NCBI GenBank assembly: GCA_014360945.1
Contig: JACIWM010000003.1
Coordinates: forward strand, 1-36,489
DNA from: Candidatus Bipolaricaulota bacterium
Lineage (GTDB): Bacteria; Bipolaricaulota; Bipolaricaulia; Bipolaricaulales; Bipolaricaulaceae
Direction of reading: 5' to 3'
DNA length: 36,489 nucleotides
The notes below the pieces were generated by a model. That model was given only the letters and a program-made list of their open reading frames with translations, ran no database searches and was not told where the DNA came from. The position numbers and the translations under genes are program-made. This document shows, piece by piece, positions 21,242-27,049 of the stretch; the first letter of the stretch is position 1, and the number at the start of each line of letters is the position of its first letter.

Positions 21242-22206
21242 GGCTTACCCTTATACTGCACCTCAATCAGCTCCATTTTTTCCGCGATCTTCTCCCGTTC
21301 AAGGCAGAGTTTTTCGTCCACTTCCGCCGCGGCCTCTGCCGCAGCCATTCCGTATTTCACCGCCTCCACCAAGTCCTTTCCCTGGCTCAACCCCACGAGG
21401 ATCCCGCCCACCAAGGCATCGTCGGCTCCGATCACGTTTCGAAAAGCCGCCGGCGAAACTTTCGCCTCGAATTTCCAGATCCCGTCAGGAGAGAACAGGA
21501 AGTCGCCGGTGAGGTGATGGGAGACGAGGCAGGCGTGGGCTCCCAAGCTCAAGGCCTTCCGGCCGGCGGAGAGAACCTCTTCCTCCGTGTGCATGGGCAT
21601 GTCCCCAAAGCATGCCACTTCCCGCACGTCCGGCTTCACCAAAAATGGACCTTCCGCGACGGCGCGGAGCATCGGCTCCCCGCCGGCATGAAGGATCACC
21701 GGCACCCCCCGTTCCCGCGCGGCCCGGGCCAGTTCCCGATAGAAGTCTGGGGAAAGCCCGGGCGGGAGAGCGCCACCCAGCACCACGTAGCTGGCGCGGG
21801 AGAGCATGCGTTGATATTTGCGCCAAAAAATTTGCAAGGCATCGGCATCGACGCGCGGCCCGGCCTCGTGGATATGGATGGGATGGTAACCCTTCCCCTG
21901 CACAATAAGTACGACGTTCACCCGGTTTTCCTCTTCGATCCACACGAAATTCGTGCTCACCCCGCGGGAGAGAAGATCCCGCAGGATGATCTGGCCGGTG
22001 TGCCCGCCGAGGAAGCCCATGGCCACGGTCTCGATCCCATGCGCGGCAAGGAAAACAGAAACGTTGATCCCTTTCCCGCCCGCGGAGGTTAGGGACTTCT
22101 CGGCACGGATGGAGCTTCCCTCCTCGGTCAGGCCCAAATCCTCGGGAAGGCTTCTCAGCCAATAAAGCTTGTCCAAGGCGGGGTTGGGGGTAACGGTGAG
22201 GATCAT
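21238..22206 (-). CDS. PfkB-family sugar kinase, 1-phosphofructokinase-like
   Basis: MILTVTPNPALDKLYWL, SAGGKGINVSVFLAAHG; C-terminal motif reads GADD instead of GAGD. Confidence 0.9.
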   Translation of the reverse strand: MILTVTPNPALDKLYWLRSLPEDLGLTEEGSSIRAEKSLTSAGGKGINVSVFLAAHGIETVAMGFLGGHTGQIILRDLLSRGVSTNFVWIEEENRVNVVLIVQGKGYHPIHIHEAGPRVDADALQIFWRKYQRMLSRASYVVLGGALPPGLSPDFYRELARAARERGVPVILHAGGEPMLRAVAEGPFLVKPDVREVACFGDMPMHTEEEVLSAGRKALSLGAHACLVSHHLTGDFLFSPDGIWKFEAKVSPAAFRNVIGADDALVGGILVGLSQGKDLVEAVKYGMAAAEAAAEVDEKLCLEREKIAEKMELIEVQYKGKP

Positions 22207-23504
22207 GCTACGGGCTCCTTTACTCCGCCGAGGAGGGCTGCGGGCGTGGCACCCGTGACCTCCACTTCCACCAGCTTCCCCACCAGCTCCGGCCCACCGG
22301 GCGCCAACACGGTCCGAAAATCTCGGGTCTTCCCCATCACCATCCCCTTTTTCGGAACGTACTCCTCCACCAAAATCTCCACCGTCCTTCCCAACCGCTC
22401 TTTGTGCAGCTCCATCGCGATCTTACGGGTAAGAGCGAGAACTTCCTGAAGGCGTCGAGATTTCTCCGCGGGAGAGATGGGATCGCCCAAGGGTGCTGCG
22501 GGAGTGTCTGGCCTAGGGGAATACGCGGCCACGTAAACCGTGCCGAACCGGGCTTCCTCGATGAGGGAGAGGGTCGCGAGAAAATCCTCCTCTTCCTCCC
22601 CGGGAAAGCCCACGATGACGTCGGTGGTGATGTTCACCTCCGGAATGGCCTTGCGAATTTTCTCCACCAGGGTCAAAAACCCTTCCCGCGTGTATCCGCG
22701 GCGCATGGCCCGCAAAATTTTGTCGCTTCCGGATTGCACCGCCAAATGCACGTGCTCACAGATATTTCCCTCCTCGGCGATGGCGGCGATGACCTCCTCC
22801 GTCATGTAAGCGGGATGAGAACTGGTGAAGCGGACCCGAGGGATCGGAATTTTTCCGATTTCCCGCAGAAGTCGAGCGAAGTTCGTGCCATCCCGAAGAT
22901 CCAGGCCGTAAGCATCCACGTTTTGGCCAAGAAGGGTGACCTCCAAGTAGCCGGAGTCCGCAAGTTCCCGGACTTCGGCCACGATCTCCCAAAGCGGCCG
23001 GGAACGGAGGGGACCGCGAACTTTGGGGATCACGCAGTAGGCACAGGAATGGGAGCAACCTTCAGCGATGGTGACGTATGCCTGGAATCGGCTTTTTCGT
23101 AAGACCGGAAGGCGTTCAAGCTCACGCGGTTCTGGAAGGAACACGGGCCGCTCTCCCCCTTGGGCCTGGGAAATGAGCTCGGGAAGGTAGCGGAGGCCGG
23201 TGGTGCCGAAGGCGAAGTCCGCAGCCGGGCAAAGGGTGAGGATCTCCGACCCCCTTCCCTGGGGCATACACCCGCCCACGCCGATGAGGACCGGCCGCTT
23301 CCTCTTCAGCCGGGCAAGCTCGTTCAGGCGACTCACCACCTTGTCCTCGCTTTTTTGCCGGACCATGCAGGTGTTGAGAATGATCACATCCGCATCCTCA
23401 GGCTTCTCCACAATGGCGTACCCGGCCGCGGCCAGGACCCCGGCGATCTCCTCGCTCTTATGGTGATTGAGCTGGCAGCCCCAGGTCAAGATACAGGCTC
23501 GCAT
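22203..23504 (-). CDS. miaB: tRNA-2-methylthio-N6-dimethylallyladenosine synthase-like radical SAM methylthiotransferase
   Basis: Start revised to MRACILTWGCQLNHHKSEE; radical SAM GCSHSCAYCVIP; LLGQNVDAYG; C-terminal TRAM-like region. Confidence 0.93.
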   Translation of the reverse strand: MRACILTWGCQLNHHKSEEIAGVLAAAGYAIVEKPEDADVIILNTCMVRQKSEDKVVSRLNELARLKRKRPVLIGVGGCMPQGRGSEILTLCPAADFAFGTTGLRYLPELISQAQGGERPVFLPEPRELERLPVLRKSRFQAYVTIAEGCSHSCAYCVIPKVRGPLRSRPLWEIVAEVRELADSGYLEVTLLGQNVDAYGLDLRDGTNFARLLREIGKIPIPRVRFTSSHPAYMTEEVIAAIAEEGNICEHVHLAVQSGSDKILRAMRRGYTREGFLTLVEKIRKAIPEVNITTDVIVGFPGEEEEDFLATLSLIEEARFGTVYVAAYSPRPDTPAAPLGDPISPAEKSRRLQEVLALTRKIAMELHKERLGRTVEILVEEYVPKKGMVMGKTRDFRTVLAPGGPELVGKLVEVEVTGATPAALLGGVKEPVA

Positions 23505-23557
23505 CGCTTTTTTGATCCTATCCGGTTTCCGTTCCGCCACAACCCGCGCCCTTCGGG

Positions 23558-23563
23558 TATCAT
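23558..23563 (+). promoter_or_regulatory. Putative -10 (TATCAT) 6 nt upstream of GTG 23570; leaderless candidate
   Basis: GGGTATCAT-ccagcc-GTG; no SD. Confidence 0.45.
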
Positions 23564-23569
23564 CCAGCC

Positions 23570-26500
23570 GTGCAGATTCTCCTGGATCGGTACATACTGC
23601 GCGAGATCATTCCGCCATTTTTTGTGGCCCTCTTGGCCTTCCTTGTGTTCATAAGCCTTGAGCTGGTCCTTTCCCTTTCCGATGCCCTCTTTGCCCGAGG
23701 AATCTCCGCCGCCGTTATGCTGCGCCTTCTTTCCTACAAGGTCCCCAACATCCTCACCCTGGCCGCGCCGGCCGGTGTTCTCCTTGCCACCTTCCTCGCC
23801 TTGGCACGGCTTGCTTCCGATCGGGAACTCCTGGCCTTGCAGGCCCTGGGATTCTCCCTACGCCGGATCCTCTTGCCCTTCTGGGTCTTTGGCCTCCTCA
23901 TAAGCGCCCTTTCTTTCCTGTTTTCGGAGTTCGTCGTTCCCAAAGCGGAGGCGATGTACCGCCGGGAGCTTCTCACCCTTCTTTATCGCGGCCCGGCTCC
24001 GCTGGTTCAAGAGAACGTGTTCTTCCGCGGCCCCCAGGGTGCCTTGTTCTATGTGGAGCGCTACAGCGGCGATAAGGTGGAAGGGGTCGTGGTCTACGAT
24101 CTTTCTGGAACCCTCTACCCTCGCAGCTCCTTCCCCGCTATGGTCACCGCCAAGGAAGGGGTTTTTTCCTCGGGGTTACTTCTTCTCCGCGAGGGCCGGG
24201 TCCTTCACTTCGGCCAAGGAGGAGAGCTCACGGAAATCCTGGGCTTTCAGGAATTGGCCATGGAGGTGGGTGAGAAGGTTGAGGAGGCGATCATCGGCGG
24301 GCGCACGCCAAGCGAGATGTCTGCCGGTGAGCTTCGGGAGCGCATCGAACTTTTGCAAAAAGCCGGGCGGGATGTTCGGGATCTCCTGGTGGAGTATCAC
24401 GGGAAGCTCGCGATATCCGCAGCGGCTTTTGTGTTCGTGCTCTTTGGGGCGCCCTTGGGTGCTATCCTCGGCCATCGCGGCCGGGCCACAGGAATGGTAG
24501 TGGGATTCCTCCTTGCCGCCGGAGCTCAAGCTCTTTTCCTTTGGGCGAGAACCTTGGCCAGAAGGGGCTTCCTTCCCCCGTTTTTGGGCGGATGGCTTCC
24601 CCATCTTGTGTTTGGGAGCCTTGGCCTCCTCCTTTTCCTGAGCGCTGATCGTTTGCGCTTCCGCGGCCTCCTTCTCCTTTTTGCCTTGAGTACCGTTGGC
24701 CTGGCCGCTCCGCCCCTCACCGAGCTTTCCGCCGAGGAATTGGTGGTAGAGGCCGAAGGAAAAGTCCTCTTAGCTACCGAGGCCCGGGCGGTGGTGGGCA
24801 CGCATCAGATCTCCGCACGTCGCCTGGCCCTGAGGGAGGAAGACGGGTGGGTTCTGGAGGCCTGGGAGGCCACCGTTCTCTCCGGCGAGGCCCGACTCCA
24901 GACGGCCTTTCTCCGGGCCATCCTTAACCCAGACGGCGTTCTCAAAGAAGCCGAGCTCCGGGATTTCTCCGGAGAGACCCGTTTTTCCGGGCCGGAAAAG
25001 GAGGAAAACCTCATCTTCTCCGCGGAGGAGGGAAAGGTTTGGTTCTCAGGGGAGGAGATCGCCCAGGCCTCTGGGAAAAACGTGGTGTTTACCACTTGTC
25101 CTTGTCTTGCGGGCGCACCGTATTTAGTGCGAGCTCAGGAATTCTGGCTCATTCCGGAGGAATGGCTTTTTGCTCGAGGGCTCGTGGTGGAATCCTTTGG
25201 TTACACCATCGTTTGGCTTCCCGTTTATGCCGCGCGGCTCGGGAAGGAAAGCGTTCCGTTCCTGCCGGAGGTGGGCCACTCCGCCCTCGGCCTTTTTTTG
25301 CGGTGGTCTATTCCCTGGACCCTGGCCCAGGGGTCGGTGGGCGCTCTTGTCCTCACCGTCTACCCTCAGGCCGGCCGGGTGGACCCGGCGCTCTGGACCT
25401 TTTGGGACACGGGAAGCCTTTTTCTGTCCGGGGAGCGGGCTACTTTGCGGTTCCGCGGCGAGCTCTTCGGCGCCCCGTGGAGCGTTCAAGGTCGTTACGA
25501 CACCCAAGGACTTGTTTTTTCCCTGACCGGAGCCGCCCAAGGCTGGCAAGTGCGTGTGAACGCCGGTTTTGTTGATGCCGAAAAACCTTATTCGCGCTTG
25601 CCCGAGATCTCCATTTCGCGAAGCTTCTCGACTTTGGGCGGAGAATTAAGCTTCAGGTGGGGGTTCGGTCGCTATCGGGAAGAGGGAAAGGAAGGATGGC
25701 GCACAAGCCTTGGGGCGAGTTGGTCCTGGTCCACGCGTATCTCGTTCCTTTCCGCTCAGCTTCCCCTGGAATTTGGGCTGGATCAATATCCCGGCACAGC
25801 CCGAGCCTACGCCGCGATCCAGCCTAGCCTCTCCTTTGGGGGCCTCAGCCTTTGGTACCGCGGACAGGTCAGCCTTGGCCGCTCCATTTTCTCCTTTGAC
25901 GCCACCCCTAGCCAAAGCCAAGTCGGGATAAGCCTTTCTGCCTCGGCCTCCGGCCTAAAACAGACCCTCACCGCAGGGTGGGACCTCGTCGAGAACGTCC
26001 CCCTTCCTCCTCGTTGGACCCTGGAGGGCCCCAATTTCCGAGCAAGCTTCCAATTCCAAGCTCAGCCCCTTCAGTTAGCCCAGGCGCGGTGGGAGGGAAG
26101 GCTTCAGGGCCAAAATTGGTTTCTGAATCTATCCGGCGGGGTCAGCGCCGGAACGTGGGAAGATCTGATTCTCCGCGGGCAGATGGGAAGTGAGGACTGG
26201 TCGGCGACCGGCGGAGTACGTCTCAGCCTACCGGCATTTTTCGCAAAGCGCGCATTCTTCCAAGTCCAAGGGAAGGCCGGAGCGGACTGGAGCTGGTCAC
26301 TCGCCGGAGAGTACGACTTCCTTTCGCAGTCCTTTGTGCAGTGGGAAACCTATGTGTATCGTACTTTTTTGGGGTGTCTTCGGGTCGGGCTTGGCCTTTA
26401 TCCCGGCGGCTTCCGCGTGAGTCTTGATGTTCCCGCGTTTCCTGAGGCGCGAGTGCAATTCGCCCCCTTGGACGAGGGTCTTCGCCTTGGCGGGCTATAA
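23570..26500 (+). CDS. LptF/LptG-family permease fused to LptA-like jellyroll and LptD/OstA-like beta-barrel (976 aa)
   Basis: aa 1-360: six TMs with a periplasmic jellyroll-like loop between TM3 and TM4. aa 361-382: RLRFRGLLLLFALSTVGLAAPP. Then an OstA-like region and an LptD-like block VVFTTCPCLAGAPYLVRAQEFWLIPEEWLFARGLVVESFGYTIVWLPVYAARL, followed by alternating beta strands. Confidence 0.88.
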   Translation: MQILLDRYILREIIPPFFVALLAFLVFISLELVLSLSDALFARGISAAVMLRLLSYKVPNILTLAAPAGVLLATFLALARLASDRELLALQALGFSLRRILLPFWVFGLLISALSFLFSEFVVPKAEAMYRRELLTLLYRGPAPLVQENVFFRGPQGALFYVERYSGDKVEGVVVYDLSGTLYPRSSFPAMVTAKEGVFSSGLLLLREGRVLHFGQGGELTEILGFQELAMEVGEKVEEAIIGGRTPSEMSAGELRERIELLQKAGRDVRDLLVEYHGKLAISAAAFVFVLFGAPLGAILGHRGRATGMVVGFLLAAGAQALFLWARTLARRGFLPPFLGGWLPHLVFGSLGLLLFLSADRLRFRGLLLLFALSTVGLAAPPLTELSAEELVVEAEGKVLLATEARAVVGTHQISARRLALREEDGWVLEAWEATVLSGEARLQTAFLRAILNPDGVLKEAELRDFSGETRFSGPEKEENLIFSAEEGKVWFSGEEIAQASGKNVVFTTCPCLAGAPYLVRAQEFWLIPEEWLFARGLVVESFGYTIVWLPVYAARLGKESVPFLPEVGHSALGLFLRWSIPWTLAQGSVGALVLTVYPQAGRVDPALWTFWDTGSLFLSGERATLRFRGELFGAPWSVQGRYDTQGLVFSLTGAAQGWQVRVNAGFVDAEKPYSRLPEISISRSFSTLGGELSFRWGFGRYREEGKEGWRTSLGASWSWSTRISFLSAQLPLEFGLDQYPGTARAYAAIQPSLSFGGLSLWYRGQVSLGRSIFSFDATPSQSQVGISLSASASGLKQTLTAGWDLVENVPLPPRWTLEGPNFRASFQFQAQPLQLAQARWEGRLQGQNWFLNLSGGVSAGTWEDLILRGQMGSEDWSATGGVRLSLPAFFAKRAFFQVQGKAGADWSWSLAGEYDFLSQSFVQWETYVYRTFLGCLRVGLGLYPGGFRVSLDVPAFPEARVQFAPLDEGLRLGGL

Positions 26501-26509: not shown

Positions 26510-27049
26510 ATGGGAAAGAAGGAGCGCCTTCCCGATTGGCTTACAGCGAGTCGGGTTCTTGTGGCCTTAGCTATCCTGGCCCTCATCCCTGCGGGGCCAA
26601 AAGCGTTGGCCGCCGTGGCCGGTCTCCTCCTTTTGGGCTGGACCACGGACATGGTGGACGGCCGCCTCGCCCGCCGCCTGGAAAAGGGCCCTACCTGGCT
26701 TGGCGAGCACGACTTCCAGATCGACATGCTCATGGTCCTCGCCTCCGCGGTGTTCCTCACCGCCACCGGCCTCGTGCCCCCGGAGGTAGGCGTTCCATAC
26801 ATGTGCGGGGCCGTCCTCATCTCCCTCTACACCTTGCGCTTCCGGGACTTCCTAAAGTTCAAGTCCGTGACCATGCTTTTGGCCTTTCCCTGGGTGTTTA
26901 CTCCCTTCATTCTCGCCCTTTTCCATGCGCCGGTGGCAGCATATGCTGGCTTGGTGTGGATGATCCTCGCCCTTATTCTTGATTGGCGGCGGTTCTTAGG
27001 GGTGGTCGGCGATTTCCTCACCGGAGCTCGCGCGTACTTCCGCCACTAA
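26510..27049 (+). CDS. CDP-alcohol phosphatidyltransferase family protein
   Basis: [26 protein letters not shown] matches D-x2-DG-x2-AR-x8-G-x3-D-x3-D spacing apart from the G; multiple TMs. Confidence 0.85.

Follow-up and report, generated by a model that had tools for sequence, protein, structure and literature searches.

One open reading frame of a Candidatus Bipolaricaulota bacterium joins a full LptF/LptG permease to a full LptD, and thereby couples the inner- and outer-membrane ends of the Lpt lipid-export machine. The frame begins with GTG and runs through 976 codons without a stop (Table 1). It lies in a window of 36,489 nucleotides, the whole stretch of contig JACIWM010000003.1 that was analysed (genome G000). 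The product is probably a fused precursor, in which an internal signal peptide would direct cutting by signal peptidase I into LptFG and LptD.

Table 1. Position of the fusion gene and of its parts within the window.
Feature	Residues	Position	Strand	Evidence
LptF/LptG permease fused to LptD, single ORF	1-976	23570..26500	+	Open frame in 76/92 Bipolaricaulota genomes with a match
LptF/LptG permease domain: six TM helices and a periplasmic beta loop	1-360	23570..24649	+	PF03739 (E 3.3e-80), AlphaFold, Foldseek
Coupling-helix motif, E86 and G94, contact to the ATPase LptB	86-94	23825..23851	+	Both invariant among 37 relatives
Basic cytoplasmic linker RLRFRG, n-region of the putative internal signal peptide	361-366	24650..24667	+	Net positive in every relative tested
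Hydrophobic segment LLLLFALSTVGLA, putative internal signal peptide; predicted cut A379/A380	367-379	24668..24706	+	Alignment of 63 relatives, site scan, pLDDT
LptD N-terminal beta-taco	~385-556	24722..25237	+	Strands in AlphaFold models; PF03968 LptD_N in 9/37 relatives
Cys510 and Cys512, FTTCPC motif, putative disulfide partners	510, 512	25097..25105	+	C510 in 38/38 and C512 in 35/38 relatives
LptD C-terminal outer-membrane beta-barrel	~567-964	25268..26461	+	AlphaFold mean pLDDT 90.3 (C-terminal half); Foldseek
Cys936 near the barrel end, putative disulfide partner	936	26375..26377	+	38/38 relatives

The permease half is recognised directly. The Pfam family LptF_LptG (PF03739) matches residues 7-357 across almost its entire profile (positions 1-352 of 353; 270 bits against a cut-off of 27.9). 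A Foldseek search with the full-length AlphaFold model retrieves both LptD and LptG, the latter (6mit_G) with a TM-score of 0.81 by target length. The E86/G94 motif agrees with the coupling-helix consensus of LptF/G (PMC5082905). This domain is about equally similar to LptF and to LptG, and neither of the NCBIfam equivalog cut-offs is reached. Exactly one LptF/G copy scores over cut-off in each of the 26 sampled Bipolaricaulota genomes that have any, and the pair of LptF and LptG paralogues that a heterodimer calls for is absent from all 26. Since each genome has a single copy, LptFG probably pairs with itself and works as a homodimer on LptB2.

The C-terminal half is LptD by three kinds of evidence: profile; fold; and conserved cysteines. 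The Pfam LptD family itself gives 11.5 bits (E 0.18), below its cut-off, and no other Pfam match to this part exceeds a cut-off. A full-length profile of 37 relatives, run against PDB sequences with hmmsearch, finds LptD chains (best E 6.8e-6, profile positions 396-815), as does a profile of the C-terminal part alone (E 1.8e-4). When the C-terminal half is modelled with AlphaFold, the best 38 Foldseek matches are all LptD chains (top E 2.8e-19). Among 38 relatives the three cysteines of Table 1 are invariant or nearly so, and a second C-terminal cysteine, compared with the second disulfide of the C31-C724 type in E. coli, is present in 12. The FTTC sequence aligns with FTSC of the solved enterobacterial LptD 4n4r, and C936 adjoins the SCCYAIRVG segment of that protein. 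We take the places of C510 and C936 to be those of the C173-C725 disulfide in E. coli LptD; a putative C510-C936 disulfide would thus tie the LptD N-terminal domain to the barrel. The LptD part of a Thermotoga fusion contains exactly two cysteines, at these same places.

A sequence-only reading of this DNA had described the uninterrupted 976-codon frame, a permease at residues 1-360, and an LptD-like block followed by about 400 beta-rich residues, all of which is borne out. It had also marked off a separate OstA/LptA-type jellyroll (residues ~383-500). Because profile, fold and cysteines all match LptD, this region is instead the ordinary N-terminal beta-taco of LptD. Few relatives, G072 among them, encode LptD as its own frame with an N-terminal signal peptide; in the window LptD is fused.

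On the upstream side, a gap of 29 bases (23541-23569) separates the fusion from a divergent methylthiotransferase-like gene (22203-23540, minus strand), and no clear ribosome-binding site was seen upstream of the GTG start. Downstream, a CDP-alcohol phosphatidyltransferase gene (26510-27049, plus strand) begins 10 bases past the fusion stop and is possibly co-transcribed with it; a motif scan for such a gene conserved beside the fusion returned no matches.

The window derives from a fragmented metagenome assembly of 187 contigs, and a stop codon lost between two genes through an assembly or sequencing error would yield a frame of this kind. The probability of such an artefact is negligible. 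Dozens of independent assemblies contain this single frame as well, among them G004 and G005, each one contig, and many single-contig Thermotogota genomes have single frames of fusion length. With this agreement between independent genomes, a fault of one contig does not account for the fusion. The sequence-only reading had named two observations that would count against it, two ORFs split by an indel and relatives always encoded as two adjacent genes. Neither was found: the independent assemblies agree, and the relatives are fused. The co-linear homologues that it had proposed to look for are common to two phyla, not peculiar to one genome.

Among 100 sampled Bipolaricaulota genomes, 92 have the gene, and 76 of these hold it as a single frame of at least 950 residues, the length at which a fusion was counted. 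Among the other 16, three are genuinely split where the two parts meet: in G043 and G044 lptFG and lptD are adjacent, and in G072 they are unlinked. Another short frame, that of G099, is ended by the edge of its contig. In a close relative (L013, genome G018), the frame is broken within the LptD part, such that residues 2-589 lie in one frame and 801-976 in another; this may be a frameshift or an assembly error. Several Bipolaricaulota (G040, G041, G042, G045 and G079-G082) have no LptF/G over cut-off, yet Omp85 is present; apparently these have lost the exporter and retained the outer membrane.

In a scan of 393 genomes, those outside the Bipolaricaulota mostly have two LptF/G copies among the matches listed. 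Re-examination of 30 of these outside genomes, 18 of them single-copy, revealed two fusions (G294 and G148), both in the Thermotogota. The phylum is identified by a PhoU gene beside one of these fusions, which matches PDB 1sum over its full length (E 9e-149); 1sum is, we take it, T. maritima TM1734. The permease is present in 103 of 104 Thermotogota genomes, and 90 of the 103 have a frame of fusion length (at least 900 residues). The longest of these frames has 1494 residues, and the check for LptD covered those whose sequence was read wholly or partly. The LptD profile built from Bipolaricaulota detects the Thermotoga fusion with an E of 7.4e-17. Among the matches listed, no LptD fusion was found in 75 further genomes of other families; overall, about 100 LptF/G genomes outside the two phyla were checked, and none showed the fusion. 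Other long frames were rejected as candidates: many are LptF-LptG tandems, and that of G168 (1269 residues), outside the two phyla, is LptF with a spurious upstream extension. Nearly all other Thermotogota are fused, whereas G398 has two adjacent, unfused LptF/G copies (L210/L238) with no LptD beside them; elsewhere this genome encodes a protein of about 600 residues with repeated LptD_N matches (L233). Locus L114 (DYGJ01000087.1), titled 'Thermotoga sp.', contains a fusion that shares 45% identity with the Bipolaricaulota query along almost the entire length; this metagenome-assembled genome may be mislabelled.

A quick tree of 97 LptFG domains, rooted at its midpoint, groups the Bipolaricaulota and Thermotogota apart from 56 others (SH-aLRT 98). 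Each phylum is monophyletic, and the split genes of G072, G043 and G044 are nested within the Bipolaricaulota. Since both phyla share one permease clade with the splits nested inside it, these sequences suggest that there was probably one ancient fusion, followed by rare later fissions.

LptF and LptG end in the cytoplasm after six helices. The LptD half therefore needs one further membrane crossing, and attention turns to the junction. Here a basic linker leads into a short hydrophobic stretch, which is usually followed by a small-x-small site. Linker net charge is positive in all relatives, with means of +3.2 (family f1), +3.9 (other Bipolaricaulota) and +2.8 (Thermotogota). In the alignment of 63 Bipolaricaulota junctions, many relatives have sites such as AWA/QE, VRA/QE, AHA/QD and AFA/QD (the slash marks the predicted cut); Thermotogota examples include HAQA/AT and VWA/AE. 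The window protein reads LLLLFALSTVGLA/AP; like several f1 relatives, it departs from the ideal site or carries proline at +2. The AlphaFold model has pLDDT below 50 at residues 362-379, and the helix there spans only 8 residues (367-374).

Cleavage sites were scored with a matrix set by hand, because expectation-maximisation training on N-termini from three genomes gave a matrix that shifted into the hydrophobic core and had to be abandoned. At the best site, position -1 is A or G in 63/63 Bipolaricaulota and A, G or S in 32/32 Thermotogota, residues for which the scan itself selects. The median score of the Bipolaricaulota junction is 4.3, as against -3.5 for TM1, 1.5 for TM3, 2.8 for TM5 and 3.3 for N-terminal signal-peptide candidates; that of the Thermotogota junction is 2.1, below TM5 (2.8), which is alanine-rich. 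Junctions shuffled at constant composition reach the observed score in 28% of cases (Bipolaricaulota) and 39% (Thermotogota). The site score separates the junction from the transmembrane helices only moderately. A small residue before the first polar residue was rejected as a junction marker, as TM2 meets this rule even more often.

The strongest evidence for an internal signal peptide comes from comparison with the split relative G072. Its LptD begins with a signal peptide of its own, MRAIAAVAAVVCAVLAPVVLA/ADEVPF, which ends (VVLA/ADEVPF) at the position aligned to AWG/DEIPV of fused relatives; its LptFG terminates in a remnant of the hydrophobic segment.

The sequence-only reading had offered either a covalent bridge or a cleaved precursor. 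The signal-peptide-like junction and the signal peptide of G072 favour the latter, and the former now looks doubtful. An uncut chain would use the hydrophobic segment as a seventh transmembrane helix, and the one polypeptide, seated in both membranes, would itself be the path for lipid. Retention of a single frame in two phyla is consistent with this, as are the weak cleavage sites at several junctions and the failure to detect a stand-alone LptA in the sampled Bipolaricaulota; there is also a precedent in the trans-envelope MlaD of Veillonella, whose TM/MCE part lies in the inner membrane and whose barrel lies in the outer one (PMC10665443). The segment, however, is short and poorly ordered in the AlphaFold model, and so few residues separate it from the taco that the membranes would have to be held about 10 nm or less apart. 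This short tether argues against an uncut bridge unless the periplasm is narrow. Moreover, the natural splits in G072, G043 and G044 indicate that the covalent link is dispensable. Should the chain stay whole after all, which we think improbable, two copies with six or seven helices each would sit on one LptB dimer as a covalent trans-envelope lipid exporter in LPS-free bacteria of both phyla.

LptD might also, or mainly, be made from a start codon within the junction. In-frame ATG, GTG or TTG codons do occur there in 56 of 63 relatives, but their position is conserved nowhere, only 17 of the 63 have ATG and only 6 an SD-like motif, and the window junction offers just two TTG codons without SD. 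On these codon patterns, an internal start is very unlikely.

For the cleaved precursor, we infer the following course. The LptFG half would insert its six helices into the inner membrane, leaving its C-terminus in the cytoplasm, where the basic linker and short hydrophobic segment would act as an internal signal peptide and send the LptD half into Sec export. The most likely cut by signal peptidase I would fall after ...VGLA-379. The freed LptD would pass to the Bam machinery for insertion into the outer membrane; LptFG would remain in the inner membrane and pair with itself on an LptB dimer. Together with LptC it would lift the lipid cargo and hand it over to the taco and barrel of LptD. Made as one chain, the inner- and outer-membrane ends would be assured of a 1:1 ratio and would arise in the same place.

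Several other components that this scheme calls for were found. Signal peptidase I was found in 41 of 43 genomes, G000 included, and Omp85 in 36 of 36. Other lpt genes, which the sequence-only reading had proposed to locate, proved to be lptB and an LptC-like gene, alongside the single LptF/G. Of 29 genomes, 24 have an LptB that exceeds the cut-off; the one in the genome of the window lies away from the fusion (G000:C165, 267.7 bits against a cut-off of 240). An LptC-type gene sits between pyrG and lptB; it is confirmed by Pfam in G060, G066 and G053, whereas in G000 its assignment comes only from its place beside lptB and from a weak match (E 3e-5). In G043 and G044, where LptD is separate, the gene order is LptC-like gene, lptB, lptFG, lptD. 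A search of limited sensitivity found no stand-alone LptA in the sampled Bipolaricaulota; LptA-like frames are present in Thermotogota.

The search for lpx genes, made with LpxC, found none in 43 genomes of both phyla, although positive controls were detected; this agrees with PMC6092417 and PMC5007114. As no LpxC was found, the cargo is probably not classical LPS; perhaps it is a glycolipid.

The literature searched yielded no description of an LptFG-LptD fusion. Parts of the Thermotoga Lpt system may already have been noted: PMC10353723 mentions, citing Putker 2015, Lpt orthologues in Thermotoga maritima, which lacks LPS. A survey of outer-membrane genes places lptD only in 'true' LPS diderms and leaves the Thermotogae without nearly all such genes except bamA (PMC8871954), and Ran1, the first genome of the phylum Acetothermia (Bipolaricaulota) to be closed, is said to be without LPS-associated genes (PMC6092417). 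Contrary to these accounts, both phyla carry LptD, joined to the permease, as well as Omp85, and lptB and an lptC-like gene are found in the Bipolaricaulota in addition. With this, inferences on how the outer membrane evolved in such deep-branching groups change. The Lpt machine appears to have had its two ends coupled since ancient times, and stably so; the findings also point to a non-LPS cargo.

The lipopolysaccharide exporter of E. coli and its relatives, made up of LptB2FGC, LptA and LptDE, shares with the fusion system a coupling-helix permease with a beta-taco loop, and separate genes for LptB and an LptC-like protein. E. coli LptD likewise combines an N-terminal taco with a barrel in the outer membrane and has conserved cysteines in its N- and C-terminal parts. 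The fusion system differs in having LptFG and LptD in one ORF; a single LptF/G instead of a pair; no LpxC found alongside; and no LptA of its own detected in the Bipolaricaulota sampled.

For a cleaved polyprotein the closest parallel is FbcH, the cytochrome b/c1 precursor of Bradyrhizobium japonicum, in which an internal signal sequence connects a polytopic membrane protein to an exported one, and which is cut in two, as shown experimentally. The layout is the same; FbcH belongs to a respiratory complex and its cleavage is demonstrated, whereas that of the fusion is predicted.

Other diderms share single traits with the fusion system. The Negativicutes and Halanaerobiales also have one LptF/G homologue; there it is not described as fused, no clear LptD is reported, and these bacteria make LPS (PMC5007114). 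The trans-envelope MlaD of Veillonella parvula and other diderms likewise unites, in one polypeptide, an inner-membrane transporter part and an outer-membrane beta-barrel; it belongs to the MCE family, serves Mla lipid traffic and has one N-terminal TM, and excerpts of PMC10665443 describe no internal junction resembling a signal peptide. Borrelia burgdorferi resembles the fusion system in having Lpt machinery without LPS, for which a glycolipid cargo is proposed (PMC10353723), but there every Lpt component is a separate gene, and LptF and LptG are distinct.
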